Origin: Acidobacteriota bacterium
GTDB lineage: Bacteria; Acidobacteriota; JAAYUB01
DNA: 64,000 bases
Reading direction: 5' to 3'
Assembly: GCA_012517875.1 (NCBI GenBank)
Contig: JAAYUB010000026.1
Coordinates: 65,134 to 129,133 of the forward strand
The position numbers and the translations under genes were made by a program. Within the stretch, counting starts at the first letter, position 1, and each line of letters begins with the position of its first letter. The notes under the pieces are model-generated. The model had not been told where the DNA came from. It searched no databases and saw only the letters and a program-made list of their open reading frames with translations. Below, piece by piece: positions 21,190 through 26,903 of the stretch.

Positions 21190-22416
21190 TTACCTCCTGC
21201 GTCGTTCCAGTTCGCTCATTACCTGGTCGAAGCTGATGCCCGAGGCCATCATCTGAACCATTAAAAAATAGAGCACATCAGCGCACTCCCAAATCAAGTC
21301 GTCCATCCGGCCGGTGGCCTCGATCACCTCATCCATTTCTTCGCGCAATTTGGCCGTCAGCAGATCCCGATCTCGCAGCAAACGGCAAGTGTAGCTGTTG
21401 TCGGACGGGCATCGGGCGCGCTGGCGCAACACCGCTTCCAGGTCTGCCGGCGCGAACCCCAGCAGACCAAAGCAACTGGCGGATCCGGTATGGCAGGCCG
21501 GACCCTCTTGCTCCACCGTGAACAGCACGGTGTCTCGATCACAATCAGGCACCACCCGGACCAGCCGCTGGATGTGACCGCTGGTTTCACCCTTTGTCCA
21601 CAATTTTTGGCGACGCCGCGAAAAATACACGCCGCGCCCGGTACGAAATGCCTCACGCAGGCTCTCCGGAGTCTGCCAGGCGACCATGCGCACCCGGCCG
21701 GCGTCGTCTTGGACCACGCACGGCAGACGTCCGCCTTCTTTGCTGAAATCCAGACAGGCAAGGAACGCCTCGGTGGGGTCCAGCCGGCCGGTGTAAAGGG
21801 CCATGCCCACCTGGGCGTCGACACCCATCCGATCAAGTACCGCCACCTCGGCGGCTGCCGTCACGCCGCCGGCGTAAGTCACGGGTTGACCGACAGTTTC
21901 ACGCAACTCCCGGATCTCATCCATGGCGAAGCCTTCCATCCGACCTTCATGGTGAATTCCCGTCACCAGGAAACCGCCGCAGAAAGGGGCCAACCGGCGG
22001 ATGCGTGCGGCGGGTGACTCGCCGGTATCCTGACGCCAACCGTGACTCATCACGTGGCCGCGGTCATGGTCTACGGCCACCAGGACGCGGTCGCGAGGCA
22101 ACCGGGTCAGGAGCGCTTCATCCGCAGCCGTACCGATGATCAGCCGGGCCGCTCCGGCACGGAGCAACTCGGCGGCGCGCCGCTCGTCCCGAATGCCGCC
22201 GCCGACACGGCAGCGGGCGATGCAGCACAGCCGCCGTACCAGCGCGCTGTTGTCGCCGCGGCCCAGCGACGCATCCAGGTCGATCACGGCGATCTCGCCG
22301 TACATGCCGAATCGGCGGGCCAGCTCCTCGACATCGTCCCGTTCCAACACCTTCTCTCTTCCCCCGACGAGTTGAACAGCCCGGCCGCCCATTAAGTCGA
22401 TGCTCGGAATCAGCAT
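21190..22416 (-). CDS. hisA: trifunctional HisA-HisI-HisE fusion
   Basis: One 408-residue chain. Residues 1-~222 are HisA, the ProFAR isomerase TIM barrel: PSIDLMGGRAVQL with the catalytic Asp7, VGGGIRD, VAVDHDRG, VTYAGGV. Residues ~224-320 are HisI, phosphoribosyl-AMP cyclohydrolase: VVQDDAGRVRMVAWQTPESL, FSRRRQKLWTKGETSG, the metal-binding DCDRD at 291-295 and the cysteines 308 and 315 in GPACHTG and SCF. Residues ~325-408 are HisE, phosphoribosyl-ATP pyrophosphohydrolase: KLREEMDEVIEA and WECADVLYFLMV. No stop or frameshift interrupts it. It would carry out steps 2, 3 and 4 of the pathway. Start ATG 22416 after GGAGG, overlapping the hisF end by seven bases. Confidence 0.93.
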   Translation of the reverse strand: MLIPSIDLMGGRAVQLVGGREKVLERDDVEELARRFGMYGEIAVIDLDASLGRGDNSALVRRLCCIARCRVGGGIRDERRAAELLRAGAARLIIGTAADEALLTRLPRDRVLVAVDHDRGHVMSHGWRQDTGESPAARIRRLAPFCGGFLVTGIHHEGRMEGFAMDEIRELRETVGQPVTYAGGVTAAAEVAVLDRMGVDAQVGMALYTGRLDPTEAFLACLDFSKEGGRLPCVVQDDAGRVRMVAWQTPESLREAFRTGRGVYFSRRRQKLWTKGETSGHIQRLVRVVPDCDRDTVLFTVEQEGPACHTGSASCFGLLGFAPADLEAVLRQRARCPSDNSYTCRLLRDRDLLTAKLREEMDEVIEATGRMDDLIWECADVLYFLMVQMMASGISFDQVMSELERRRR

Positions 22417-23165
22417 GGGCGTACCTCCACGCCGCAGCGGCTCAATTCGGCCTTCAGGGAACGGACTGTGTACCGGCCGTAATGGAATACTGACGCGGCC
22501 AGGAGCGCATCCGCGCCGGCGGACAACGCATCGACCATGTGTGTGGCGGTACCCATGCCGCCCGAGGCGATGACGGGCACCCGACAAACGGAGCCAGCCA
22601 GCCGAAGCCCCGCCAGGTCATACCCTTCCTGCCGACCGTCTGTGTTGATGACGGTAAGCAGTATTTCGCCGACGCCCAATGCCTGGCCCCGGCGCAGCCA
22701 GTCGGACAGTTCAAGCCCGGTGACTGTCCGGCCGGCATCCACCACCACCCAGTATCCGGTCTCCGTCCGCAGGGCGTCCACGGCCAGAACCACACATTGA
22801 CGACCGAAACGGTCCGCCAATTCCGACAGGAGCTGCGGCCGTCGCACAGCCGCCGTGTTAACCGCCACTTTGTCGCAGCCGGAGCGCAGCAGTCGCCAGG
22901 CATCATCCACACAGCAAATACCCCCGCCCACCGTGAGGGGCACGAACACCGTCCGGGCTGTCCGCTCCACCAAATCCCGCATGGTTTTCCTGCCCTCGAG
23001 GCCGGCGGTGATATCAAGAAACACCAACTCGTCGGCACCGTCGGCGTAATATCGCTGGGCCAGCTCCACGGGATCGCCGCCGTCTCGGAGACCCTGAAAC
23101 TGGATGCCTTTCACCACCCGGCCGTCCATGACATCCAGGCAGGGGATGATCCGTCTCATCACCAT
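22410..23165 (-). CDS. hisF: imidazole glycerol phosphate synthase, cyclase subunit
   Basis: Cyclase half of IGP synthase, pairing with HisH. It turns PRFAR plus ammonia into IGP and AICAR. 251 residues: RIIPCLDVMDGRVVKGIQF (catalytic Asp in CLDV), TAGLEG, PLTVGGGI, DKVAVNTAAV, VLAVDALR (second catalytic Asp), TVINTDGRQEGYD and PVIASGGMGT. Start ATG 23165 with AAGGAGG; it overlaps the hisH end by seven bases. A longer open frame to 24029 on this strand is chance. Confidence 0.96.
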   Translation of the reverse strand: MVMRRIIPCLDVMDGRVVKGIQFQGLRDGGDPVELAQRYYADGADELVFLDITAGLEGRKTMRDLVERTARTVFVPLTVGGGICCVDDAWRLLRSGCDKVAVNTAAVRRPQLLSELADRFGRQCVVLAVDALRTETGYWVVVDAGRTVTGLELSDWLRRGQALGVGEILLTVINTDGRQEGYDLAGLRLAGSVCRVPVIASGGMGTATHMVDALSAGADALLAASVFHYGRYTVRSLKAELSRCGVEVRPC

Positions 23166-23749
23166 GACAACACCTCCTTCAGGAAAGCCAGTCCTCGCGG
23201 TCCGCTTTTTTCCGGATGAAACTGGCAGCCGGTCAGCGGGCCGGATTGTCCGGCGGCCAAAAACTCGACGCCGTAGCGCGCCAGACCCCGCCAATTCCAG
23301 TGTGCGGGACCGGCGGCGGTGGGAATGAAATAGGAATGCACAAAATAGGCCACCGGTATTTCCGGCCCGGCTGTCATGTGCACAGGGCTCCACCCCATGT
23401 GGGGGACTTTCAGAAAGCGGGAGTCGAAGGACAGACACCGCCCCGGCCATACGCCCAGACCGGCGGCACCCGGGGCTTCGTCGGATGCCTCGAACAGGAG
23501 TTGCAGGCCCAAACATATCCCCAGCAACGGGCGGTTGGAGCTGACCCAGGCTCGCAAGGCGGTGGCCAGACCGCTTGACCGCAACATGGCTGCTGCGGCG
23601 CCGAAGTGTCCCACTCCCGGCAGCACCAGCCGGGAACATCGCCGAAGCTCGTCGGGTCGCGATACCCGCCGCGACGGCCGGCCCAGTGCAGCCAGCGCGT
23701 TCTCCAGACTCCGCAGGTTTCCGGCGCCGAAATCCACGATGCCGATCAT
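23159..23749 (-). CDS. hisH: imidazole glycerol phosphate synthase, glutaminase subunit
   Basis: Class I glutamine amidotransferase that feeds ammonia to HisF. 196 residues: IVDFGAGNLRSLENAL, LPGVGHFG, the nucleophile Cys in LGICLGLQLL, PHMGWSPV, FVHSYFI and the catalytic His-Glu in CQFHPEKSG. Overlaps hisB upstream by four bases (ATGA type) and hisF downstream by seven. Confidence 0.96.
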   Translation of the reverse strand: MIGIVDFGAGNLRSLENALAALGRPSRRVSRPDELRRCSRLVLPGVGHFGAAAAMLRSSGLATALRAWVSSNRPLLGICLGLQLLFEASDEAPGAAGLGVWPGRCLSFDSRFLKVPHMGWSPVHMTAGPEIPVAYFVHSYFIPTAAGPAHWNWRGLARYGVEFLAAGQSGPLTGCQFHPEKSGPRGLAFLKEVLSW

Positions 23750-24327
23750 CGGAGGCCTCCCTTGGTGCTTCGGGCCAAACCGACCCAGGGTTGCCGTGCT
23801 TCCTCAAGAGCCAAGCCGGTGGCTTTGAAGAGCGCCTCGACCATGTGGTGGACGTTTTGACCACTGACCTGCAGGTGCAACGTGAAGCGGGCGGTGTGGG
23901 CCAACGATCGGAAGAAATGCAGGATGTTCTCCACCGCCAGCCCCCCGACCGCTTCACGCCGGAAGCGCCCGCGAAACCAGAATCCGGGGCGGCCACCGAT
24001 GTCCAGGGCAGCCAGCGCCAGGGCGTCATCCATGGGCAGCCAGTACTGCCCGAAACGTTGGCACCCGGTTCGGTCGCCGAACCAAGTGTTCAAGGCGTCA
24101 CCAATGGCCAGGGCGGTGTCTTCCACCACATGATGGTCGTCGGCCGGCACCAGATCGCGCGCGTCCAGCTCGAGGCCAAGTCCGGCGTAGAACACCAGTT
24201 GATCCAGAAAATGGGAGAACACCGGGATCGGGGTGACGATCCGGCGGACCGTAGGCTCCCCGGTCAGGAATCCGGAGATCGATGTTTCCCGGGTCTGGCG
24301 ATTGATGAGAATGCGGTCTGATTTCAT
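23746..24327 (-). CDS. hisB: imidazoleglycerol-phosphate dehydratase (monofunctional)
   Basis: Mn-dependent dehydratase of IGP to imidazole acetol phosphate. 193 residues: FSHFLDQLVFYAG, the metal-binding DDHHVVEDTALAIG, LPMDDALALAALDIGGRP and the second metal motif VHHMVEALFKA. It has no HAD phosphatase domain, so a separate histidinol-phosphatase must lie outside this operon. Start ATG 24327 with GGAGG; the longer frame to 24378 adds an unlikely N-terminus. The start overlaps the hisC stop by four bases. Confidence 0.95.
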   Translation of the reverse strand: MKSDRILINRQTRETSISGFLTGEPTVRRIVTPIPVFSHFLDQLVFYAGLGLELDARDLVPADDHHVVEDTALAIGDALNTWFGDRTGCQRFGQYWLPMDDALALAALDIGGRPGFWFRGRFRREAVGGLAVENILHFFRSLAHTARFTLHLQVSGQNVHHMVEALFKATGLALEEARQPWVGLARSTKGGLR

Positions 24328-25415
24328 GACAACCTCCAGGCAGCGGGAATGGGTTCCGGACGACGTTGAGTCAGCCACGGGGTGAACGCGGACAGAAAGA
24401 CCGCGGTGTCTTCTGGTCCGGTAACACTGACCCGGATGAATCCCGACAGGTCGTCGCCCAGCAATCGGACGAGGATGCCCTGCTCGGCCAGAGCGGACGC
24501 TGCTGAACCGGCGGCGTCGCCCAGATAGAACACGCAGAAGTGGGTGACTGACGACCAGACCGGAACGCCCAGCCGTGCCAGCTCCCGCTGCAGTGTGGCC
24601 CGGGCAGTGGTGGCCGCGGCGAGCCGTTCCCGAAAATCTGTGTCGCCCGCCAGGAAAGCGGAACCGACCCAGGCCGCTGTGGCGGTCAGGTTGTAGGGTG
24701 AGCGGAGGGTATCCAGTGACGAGATCACCGCAGGGTGGCCGACGACGAAACCGCAGCGCAACCCTGGCAGGCCGCGTGCCTTGCTCAGCGTGCGCAAGAT
24801 GATCAGATTGGAGAAGCGTTCAATCCAGGGAATGAAATTCTGGCCGCAGAATTCGGCATAGGTCTCATCTAGGAGGATCGGGCGCTCCGGTGCCAGTTGG
24901 AGCAAACGGGCCAGATCGCCGGGGCGGATGGGGCGGGCGGTGGGATTGTTCGGTGACGCCAGCACGACCAGCGCCGCCCCTCCGGCCGCCTCCAGTACCG
25001 CATTCAGGTCCAATTCGAAATCGGGGGCGAGCGTCACGGCGGTGACCGCGGCGCCGGCTAGTTGTGCGTAAAATGTGTACATGCTGAACGTGGGGCGCAC
25101 TGTGACCATCCGGTCGCCGGGGCCGGCGAACGCCCCGATCACCAGCCGGAGACCTTCATCGGCGCCGCAGACCGGCATGATACCGCCCGCGGGAGCGCCG
25201 TAATGAACAGCGGCCAGCCGCCGCAGTTCGGTGTACTCGGGGTAGTAAGACAGCCGGGATGCCGCCTCAACCAACAACTCGCGCAACAGGCCGGGCGCGG
25301 GCGGGGGCCCTTCGTTGGCGTCGAGGCGGCGATACCGGTCGCGTCCGGTGGGAGTCGCATAGGGTGTGATGCCGCGCAGGGCCGGCCGGACAAGGGGGAG
25401 CACCTGGCCGACCAT
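24324..25415 (-). CDS. hisC: histidinol-phosphate aminotransferase
   Basis: PLP-dependent class I/II aminotransferase. 363 residues: RLDANEGPPP, YPEYTELRRLAA, ASPNNPTARP, LDETYAEF, the PLP lysine in LRTLSKARGLPGLRCGF and the terminal FIRVSVTGPEDT. Start ATG 25415, sharing a base with the hisG stop (TGATG). The order hisG-hisC-hisB is that of the pathway operon in several phyla. Confidence 0.95.
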   Translation of the reverse strand: MVGQVLPLVRPALRGITPYATPTGRDRYRRLDANEGPPPAPGLLRELLVEAASRLSYYPEYTELRRLAAVHYGAPAGGIMPVCGADEGLRLVIGAFAGPGDRMVTVRPTFSMYTFYAQLAGAAVTAVTLAPDFELDLNAVLEAAGGAALVVLASPNNPTARPIRPGDLARLLQLAPERPILLDETYAEFCGQNFIPWIERFSNLIILRTLSKARGLPGLRCGFVVGHPAVISSLDTLRSPYNLTATAAWVGSAFLAGDTDFRERLAAATTARATLQRELARLGVPVWSSVTHFCVFYLGDAAGSAASALAEQGILVRLLGDDLSGFIRVSVTGPEDTAVFLSAFTPWLTQRRPEPIPAAWRLS

Positions 25416-26278
25416 CACAGCACCACCTTGGAGAATGGGTACTCGAGAATATCGGTGGCCCCGGCTGCCTTCAGCTCCGGAATCAGCCGGACGACCTGAA
25501 CCTTGGGCACCGCCGCCTTGACGGCAAAGCCGGTCCCATCTGACAGGCTGGACATGGTGGGCTTGCGCATGCAGGGGAGCACAGCCAAAACCGCGGGTAA
25601 ACGGTCTCCGGCCACGTTCATTTCCAGCATGACCCGGCTTCGAGCGTCTAGGACGGCTTGTACCAGCATGGCCAGCTCCGCGATGGTTCGCCCCTTGGGG
25701 CCGTCCATGGCGATCGGGTTGGCGATGAGCCGGGTGGACGAACGCAGCAGGGTGTCGACAACGGTTAAGCCGTTCTCGCGCAGCGTCCGGCCGGAGGCGG
25801 TGTTATCCACGATCAGGTCGGCGTCTTCGGGCGGAAACACTTCGGTGGCGCCATAGCTGCGGACAAAGAGATAATCCGCGCCGCGGCCATCCAGGTAGCG
25901 TCGGGTGATGGATTCATACTCCGAGGCCACCAGCAGCCGGCGGCGGAAAAACGCCGGATCCTTGGCCATCTCCTGTGGCGCCGCAGCCACCAGGCAAACC
26001 GGATCGAGCGCGGTGTCCAGCAATTCCTGGACAGCCGCATCCAGCTCCACAACCCAGTCATAGCCGGCAAAAGCAACGTCGTGGGAACCGAGTTCCACCA
26101 TGCGCACGATATTTTGGGGTTTCAGAATCTTCAGTTCAAACCGGTTATCGATACAGACCGGGCGGTAGTTGCGGCCGTTGCCCTGCACGGCCAGGCCGGC
26201 ATCCCCCAGTAGGTGTTCCACCGCTGCGTACATATGCCCCTTGGGCAGCGCCAGTTGAATTCGGTCATCGTTGATCAT
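25415..26278 (-). CDS. hisG: ATP phosphoribosyltransferase (long form)
   Basis: First, committed step of histidine synthesis (ATP plus PRPP). 287 residues: QLALPKGHMYAAV, FAGYDWVVE, VASEYESITRRYL, the PRPP loop at LIVDNTASGRTLRENGL, and a C-terminal ACT-like domain of about 75 residues. The C-terminal domain marks the HisZ-independent long form, which in this family is feedback-inhibited by histidine. Start ATG 26278 after AGGAG, 13 bp beyond the U-tract of the second leader terminator, so both attenuation and feedback inhibition control flux. A longer in-frame reading to 26347 crosses the terminator and is not real. Confidence 0.96.
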   Translation of the reverse strand: MINDDRIQLALPKGHMYAAVEHLLGDAGLAVQGNGRNYRPVCIDNRFELKILKPQNIVRMVELGSHDVAFAGYDWVVELDAAVQELLDTALDPVCLVAAAPQEMAKDPAFFRRRLLVASEYESITRRYLDGRGADYLFVRSYGATEVFPPEDADLIVDNTASGRTLRENGLTVVDTLLRSSTRLIANPIAMDGPKGRTIAELAMLVQAVLDARSRVMLEMNVAGDRLPAVLAVLPCMRKPTMSSLSDGTGFAVKAAVPKVQVVRLIPELKAAGATDILEYPFSKVVL

Positions 26279-26290
26279 GATAGCTCCTGA

Positions 26291-26319
26291 AATAAAAACC
26301 CGGGCACGGGAGCCCGGGT
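26291..26319 (-). terminator. attenuator terminator 2, just upstream of hisG
   Basis: On the minus strand a perfect 8-bp stem ACCCGGGC/GCCCGGGT (26312-26319 and 26298-26305) with a 6-nt loop, followed by TTTTATT. A rival pairing exists: TCACCCGG (26314-26321, the 5' arm) is exactly complementary to CCGGGTGA at 26354-26361, which contains the stop codon of leader peptide 2. When a ribosome is held upstream at the His codons, that antiterminator can form. When it reaches the stop codon it covers CCGGGTGA and the terminator forms. Confidence 0.85.
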
Positions 26320-26353
26320 GAGGGAAACGTTGGACGATGTGCTGCATGCACCT

Positions 26354-26485
26354 TCACCCGGAAGGGAGGTGGAAATGGTGATGGTGATGGGCATGAAACG
26401 GTGCAATGAACAGTCCAAGACCAGACGCCAGGCGGCGGAATGCTGATCGTTGAGTGCTGATCGATTTTGTCTTGCTTAGTTTCAT
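26354..26485 (-). CDS. his leader peptide 2 (43 residues, seven His)
   Basis: ATG 26485, with GGTGGA 7 nt upstream, stop TGA at 26354. The peptide starts MKLSKTKSIS, has a hydrophobic stretch SGLGLFIAPF at 21-30 and then HAHHHHHFH at 31-39 (His at 31, 33-37 and 39), ending LPSG. All seven His codons sit within nine codons, as in the enterobacterial hisL leader. TGCACC before the His run (26400-26405) can pair with GGTGCA after it (26347-26352), the protector stem of an attenuator. An in-frame ATG at 26512 would lengthen it to 52 residues. It is too long for a minimal leader and looks partly like a signal sequence, so an exported His-rich peptide is an alternative. The position before a terminator and hisG favours a leader. 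Confidence 0.8.
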   Translation of the reverse strand: MKLSKTKSISTQRSAFRRLASGLGLFIAPFHAHHHHHFHLPSG

Positions 26486-26537
26486 GTATTCATCCACCGA
26501 CAAAGTGAACATTTTCTGCAAAGCGGCACAACAAACT

Positions 26538-26564
26538 AAAAACCCCCGGCCTTGGCCGGGGGTT
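26538..26564 (-). terminator. attenuator terminator 1
   Basis: On the minus strand an 11-bp stem AACCCCCGGCC/GGCCGGGGGTT (26554-26564 and 26541-26551), with 2 unpaired central bases, running straight into TTTTT. Its 5' arm can instead pair with the region after the His codons of leader 1: CCCGGCC (26554-26560) with GGCCGGG (26616-26622), continued after a 3x3 internal loop by CACCA (26564-26568) with TGGTG (26608-26612). Confidence 0.85.
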
Positions 26565-26593
26565 GGTGTGATCTGTGCTGTGAAAGTAGATGA

Positions 26594-26674
26594 TTAAACA
26601 GCGTGCGCACCAGTGCCCGGCCCGATAATCGGGTGATGGTGGTGATGAAGCCGGGAAAGCGTTGCTGTAACCAT
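26594..26674 (-). CDS. his leader peptide 1 (26 residues, HHHHH)
   Basis: ATG 26674 with GAGG 6 nt upstream, stop TAA at 26594. The peptide is MVTATLSRL, then five consecutive His codons (residues 10-14, CAT CAC CAC CAT CAC), then PIIGPGTGAHAV. CCCGGC just before the His run (26650-26655) can pair with GCCGGG just after it (26616-26621), and CCCGA/TCGGG forms a small hairpin at 26621-26633. These are the 1:2 elements of a classic attenuator; the 2:3 and 3:4 elements are given with terminator 1. Promoter and start of transcription lie just upstream. Confidence 0.85.
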   Translation of the reverse strand: MVTATLSRLHHHHHPIIGPGTGAHAV

Positions 26675-26691
26675 TTGTTGCCTCGCCGCAC

Positions 26692-26720
26692 AAGATATAC
26701 AGCCGCTGAGGCTGTGTCAA
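26692..26720 (-). promoter_or_regulatory. promoter of the his operon
   Basis: On the minus strand a perfect TTGACA (26715-26720), a 17-bp spacer and TATCTT (26692-26697, 4/6); TATATC two bases earlier is an alternative. Transcription would start about 10 nt before the leader 1 ribosome site, as expected for an attenuation leader. It reads away from the divergent membrane-protein gene at 26904. I see no second promoter of similar quality between the two terminators. Confidence 0.75.
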
Positions 26721-26903
26721 GCACATTTTGTCGGATCAGGTGCTGGCGGTACACGGCGCGGGCCGCGGACCGGATCGGAGGCGCAGCAACCGCAGAGCGC
26801 AAATCCGATGTTCCGAACTGAATTTGAGAATCGGCACGGGACACCGCGCATCTCAGAAAGCGTTTTCATGCTTACCGAGAACAACGACAGCCCGGAGTCG
26901 AGG

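Follow-up and report, generated by a model that had tools for sequence, protein, structure and literature searches.

In other bacteria the his operon is known with one ribosome-mediated attenuator. The enterobacterial system (hisL, RF00514) has a leader ORF with His codons, alternative hairpins and an intrinsic terminator before hisG, and single His attenuators are known in Firmicutes and Proteobacteria (PMC9413887, PMC2965389). Attenuation models show how a single leader trades basal leak against sensitivity; the leak of the trp leader is set by ribosome release at the stop codon, and an extra hairpin suppresses leak in the his leader (PMC1183508). Comparative attenuator surveys of 2004 and 2010 are cited in PMC9413887 and PMC4833913. 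The closest known tandem is Salmonella mgtCBR, in which two leader ORFs (mgtM and mgtP) in one leader mRNA each act through translation; this pair senses ATP and proline additively, without intrinsic terminators, and has been called a singular example (PMC3641672).

Here we describe a locus upstream of hisG at which two His leaders appear to follow each other. It shares the hisL parts listed above, and E. coli hisL was picked up by the scan and passed the fold test used here, but hisL is a single unit from another phylum. It likewise shares with the Firmicutes attenuators a His-run leader ORF and a terminator before his genes, outside Proteobacteria, although those too are single units and come from an unrelated phylum. 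In contrast to the two different signals of mgtCBR, both leaders here carry His runs, and each has its own intrinsic terminator. Two sensors and two intrinsic terminators in series also occur in the metE tandem riboswitches of Bacillus clausii (as described in PMC3641672), but these bind metabolites directly, recognize two different ligands and lack a leader peptide. The initial annotation of this DNA had held that a tandem pair outside Enterobacteria was not known to have been described, and our literature search, which had most subscription papers outside it, found no report of a pair of leader-peptide attenuators arranged in series and reading one and the same amino acid. A natural same-signal cascade of two attenuators, if true, would allow a direct test of the trade-off between leak and sensitivity, and would represent a means of reducing leak other than the extra hairpin seen in enterobacterial his leaders.

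Organization of the region upstream of hisG

The locus lies in the window (the whole 64-kb stretch of DNA that was analysed). On the minus strand, one promoter is followed by two short ORFs with His runs, each with an intrinsic terminator, and finally by hisG, the first gene of the operon:

26692..26720, minus strand, sigma70-type promoter TTGACA-17-TATCTT, consensus match 10/12
26594..26674, minus strand, leader ORF 1, 26 aa, MVTATLSRLHHHHHPIIGPGTGAHAV then stop, carrying an unbroken run of five His codons (26647-26633)
26650..26655, minus strand, leader 1 segment 1 (CCCGGC)
26616..26622, minus strand, leader 1 segment 2 (GGCCGGG)
26538..26564, minus strand, intrinsic terminator 1 (T1), stem of 10 pairs and T run
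26354..26485, minus strand, leader ORF 2, 43 aa, MKLSKTKSISTQRSAFRRLASGLGLFIAPFHAHHHHHFHLPSG then stop, in which seven of the nine codons 26395-26369 are His
26400..26405, minus strand, leader 2 segment 1 (TGCACC), partner GGTGCA at 26352-26347
26354..26361, minus strand, leader 2 segment 2 (CCGGGTGA), stop codon inside
26293..26319, minus strand, intrinsic terminator 2 (T2), stem of 8 pairs and T run
25415..26278, minus strand, hisG (PF01634 and PF08029)
24324..25418, minus strand, hisC, class I/II aminotransferase (PF00155)
23746..24378, minus strand, hisB, IGP dehydratase (PF00475)
23159..23749, minus strand, hisH, glutamine amidotransferase (PF00117)
22410..23159, minus strand, hisF, 5' end approximate (PF00977)
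21190..22422, minus strand, hisA-hisI-hisE fusion in one ORF (PF00977, PF01502, PF01503)

Every part named in the initial annotation (the promoter, two His-run ORFs, two terminators, hisG and the complementary segments) was thus present as it had described. We read the region as two ribosome-mediated attenuators, both reading charged tRNA-His, placed in series between one promoter and hisG-C-B-H-F-AIE; judged from sequence, we give this reading a probability of about 0.84. The earlier reading as two His-leader attenuators in series is supported by conservation in four genomes and by pairing in the window that exceeds shuffled sequences (see below).

When both strands of the 64-kb window were scanned for a His-rich short ORF with a terminator, there were exactly two matches, leaders 1 and 2; tetra-His runs, of which there are 96 genome-wide, are uninformative when taken alone. 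As in known ribosome-mediated his attenuators, a His-run leader ORF precedes the his operon with intrinsic terminators (here two) in between, and antiterminator pairing that depends on ribosome position is clear in leader 2; in leader 1 it runs via a 1:2 protector and is weak when judged by footprint only. Against the whole RF00514 His_leader model, leader 1 scored 25.3 bits (E = 0.061), below the gathering threshold of 49 bits, and leader 2 had no match to RF00514 among those listed. Rfam scans at gathering thresholds returned no match in the window, nor in 20 related loci. A T-box riboswitch was rejected, as no T-box covariance model matched even at E ≤ 5.

In the congener G001 (L032 7674-9071) an ORF judged by eye to be of like hisA-hisI-hisE make-up is followed by a hisD-like ORF.

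Conservation of the tandem leaders in two genera

The family sample comprised four MAGs of uncultured Acidobacteriota: that of the window (G000), G001 and G002, which are three congeners, and G003, from a second genus of the same GTDB family. A scan of named genomes placed the two congeners of the window's genome, and one genome of its family, in Acidobacteriota. HisG identity was 93-95% among the congeners and 68% for G003; the congeners are closely related and so do not count as independent samples. The tandem was present in 4/4 genomes, with both leaders and both terminators in the same order. Both His runs, whose conservation in relatives had been named as a check, persist in all four genomes, and the outcome that would have counted against the initial annotation, close relatives devoid of both His codons and pairing, was not observed. 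An artefact of a single assembly is ruled out by the four separate MAGs.

In G003 the sequences of leader 1, T1 and leader 2 have diverged from the other genus while the layout is kept. The leader 1 counterpart is MTIVQVHHHPHHPSA then stop, T1 is a CCTTCCGG/CCGGAAGG hairpin and T2 is an ACCCGGG hairpin, as in the genus. Leader 2 of G003 is 44 aa long, contains HHHHQH and ends in PPG with its stop within CCCGGGTGA, a sequence shared at the leader 2 stop by G001, G002 and G003. The initial annotation had argued from the unlike peptides that the pair is no recent duplication; such a duplication is ruled out, as the two leaders are dissimilar and each resembles its own counterpart in the other genus (leader 1 short, leader 2 of 43-44 aa with CCCGGGTGA at the stop).

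Among the three congeners, the terminators showed the highest non-coding conservation (invariant columns 26/28, 93%, for T1 and 24/26, 92%, for T2). Invariance was 86% in leader 1, 75-80% in leader 2, 57% in the gap between T1 and leader 2 and 55% in the upstream region, compared with 23/29 columns for the promoter. TTGACA is also present ahead of leader 1 in G003, and the promoter at 26720-26692 was the only promoter-like site in 26150-26900 (0.3 expected).

These data bear on whether leader 2 might instead be transcribed from a promoter of its own in the gap at 26537-26486, giving two promoters and parallel attenuators. The gap of the genus is 52 nt long and poorly conserved, but it holds no promoter-like site, and in G003 just 15 nt separate T1 from the leader 2 ATG. 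That distance leaves no space for a second promoter in G003, where read-through of T1 is thus the sole route to leader 2. We therefore regard parallel promoters as quite improbable, and the G003 spacing as the strongest single argument for the series arrangement.

Among the congeners, neither leader ORF contains indels and leader 1 keeps its five His codons unchanged in all three genomes, and the His codons of leader 2 differ between G000 and G001 by synonymous changes only. Beyond His the leader peptides are unconserved, with nonsynonymous changes equal to or exceeding synonymous ones, unlike hisG. His-rich peptides can bind metals, and the leaders could in principle encode functional peptides of this kind with the terminators being incidental. 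We consider this highly improbable: it is the terminators and the pairing that are conserved, whereas the non-His residues are not, and the stop codon of leader 2 sits in the antiterminator arm.

In G002, two His codons of leader 2 (L033 1189-1239) have been replaced, by Arg and Tyr, and the 2:3 duplex of this leader is weaker (p = 0.133); the second switch is possibly relaxed in this one species. Leader 2 ends in Pro-Ser-Gly-stop in the window (26362-26354) and in Pro-Pro-Gly-stop in L032, L033 and L034. The Pro-Pro-Gly motif might slow the ribosome at the leader 2 stop, holding segment 2 covered, or it may merely reflect the requirement for CCCGGG pairing.

Folding and pairing of the leader transcripts

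The initial annotation had proposed folding each leader. In equilibrium folds of the whole leaders the terminators formed in nearly every case, whatever the ribosome position, suggesting that the switch has to be kinetic. Transcripts were therefore cut before the terminator 3' arm and folded with a ribosome footprint on the His codons (stall) or on the stop codon (stop). On these a stall/stop switch appeared, most clearly for leader 2, where the sequestered fraction of the 5' arm (stall/stop) was 0.86/0.34 in the window and 0.89/0.34, 0.79/0.27 and 0.64/0.44 in the other three genomes. The difference exceeded that of shuffled sequences in each congener (p = 0.005). As a method control, E. coli hisL ranked 0.99 among its own shuffles. 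Footprint folding thus supports leader 2 as a textbook ribosome-position switch.

With footprint masking alone, leader 1 gave 0.72/0.53 in G000 and about no difference in G001 and G002, so that leader 1 of the genus did not pass the footprint-only test. This failure arises because segment 2 sits just beyond the footprint of a ribosome at the stop. Complementary segments had been put forward for both leaders. In the window the leader 1 duplexes exceeded shuffles (1:2, -25.5 kcal/mol, p = 0.002; 2:3, -17.4 kcal/mol, p = 0.010), as did 2:3 of leader 2 (-16.9 kcal/mol, p = 0.009), but 1:2 of leader 2 was weak (-20.6 kcal/mol, p = 0.081). The values for G003 were suggestive only (p = 0.035-0.13). 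These energies support a leader 1 switch that depends on the 1:2 protector hairpin forming first. The two stages may then differ in design, leader 1 using a separate 1:2 protector hairpin and leader 2 a stop codon inside the antiterminator arm.

The weak footprint-only result for leader 1, together with the two His codons missing from leader 2 of G002, would suit a locus in which one leader alone is a working His switch, its partner being a relic or acting as a constitutive partial terminator. We think this unlikely, since the His runs, ORFs and terminators of both units are retained in two genera, no other non-coding stretch is as conserved as T1 and T2, and pairing is above chance in both leaders of G000.

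Proposed mechanism of the two attenuators in series

With two His attenuators in series, a ribosome supplied with plentiful His-tRNA would translate the His run without stalling. The CCCGGC/GCCGGG (1:2) hairpin of leader 1 would then form, and in leader 2 segment 2 would be covered by the ribosome standing at the stop codon that this segment contains; in either leader the terminator 5' arm would be left free and RNA polymerase would stop. When His-tRNA is short, the ribosome would stall at the His run, segment 2 would base-pair with the 5' arm of the terminator, letting polymerase continue. Both gates would have to open, so overall read-through would be the product of the two. With its stop in segment 2, leader 2 would be expected to leak, which the preceding leader 1 would counteract.

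A crude stochastic simulation, illustrative only, in which rules and rates were assumed and the rates came from the literature (50 nt/s, 15 codons/s, release 1/s; PMC1183508), gave basal read-through of 0.07 for leader 1, 0.29 for leader 2 and 0.02 for both, and full read-through at slow His decoding (45 nt lead). These numbers depend on the assumptions, whereas in the model the direction (lower leak, same maximum) does not. Lower basal read-through is thus the likely benefit of the tandem. The initial annotation had expected a steeper response to charged tRNA-His, which may also hold, but the simulation shows mainly the lower basal read-through. The sequence itself shows the parts, their conservation, pairing beyond chance and the link to hisG; from these we infer leader translation, termination in vivo, a response to histidine and a benefit in the form of lower leak and larger range. 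On balance it is likely that this is the first same-amino-acid pair of leader-peptide attenuators acting one after the other on a single transcript and fixed in an acidobacterial family, with stages possibly of different design and a low-leak, larger-range histidine response that operates without a repressor.

Distribution of His leaders across phyla

We surveyed hisG loci with a scan that accepts a leader when four or more of nine codons are His and a strong terminator precedes hisG; the counts are therefore lower bounds. Among 138 acidobacterial loci, two His leaders were found at 4, one at 33 and none were detected at 101; among 88 other loci (Myxococcota, Planctomycetota and others), one His leader was found at 8 and two at 0. 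The tandem was therefore seen in 4/4 genomes of the family against 0/134 other acidobacterial and 0/88 other loci and, as far as these genomes show, appears to be a property of one family. When residues were compared by the scan for residue-rich short ORFs with a terminator over 146 loci, His was far ahead (36), followed by Arg (12), with most residues at 0-6.

The survey points to ribosome-mediated His attenuation by single leaders as common in Acidobacteriota and present also in Planctomycetota. Taken together, the acidobacterial single His leaders pass the stall/stop fold test, though none of those compared with Rfam reached a gathering threshold, and 41/42 single leaders (hisL included) lie above their shuffle median (Wilcoxon 1.5e-8). 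The single His leader, cited in the initial annotation as known from Enterobacteria, is thus not confined there, being found in Firmicutes (PMC9413887), at 33/138 acidobacterial loci and in Planctomycetota.

Single His leaders stand ahead of hisG at the acidobacterial loci L009, L011, L017, L035, L039, L123, L126 and 26 more. A single His leader with a terminator before hisG was also seen in Planctomycetota (L047, L244, L246, L247, L249 and L250), in L043 (a MAG labelled Armatimonadetes) and in L266 (a Myxococcales phylum genome).
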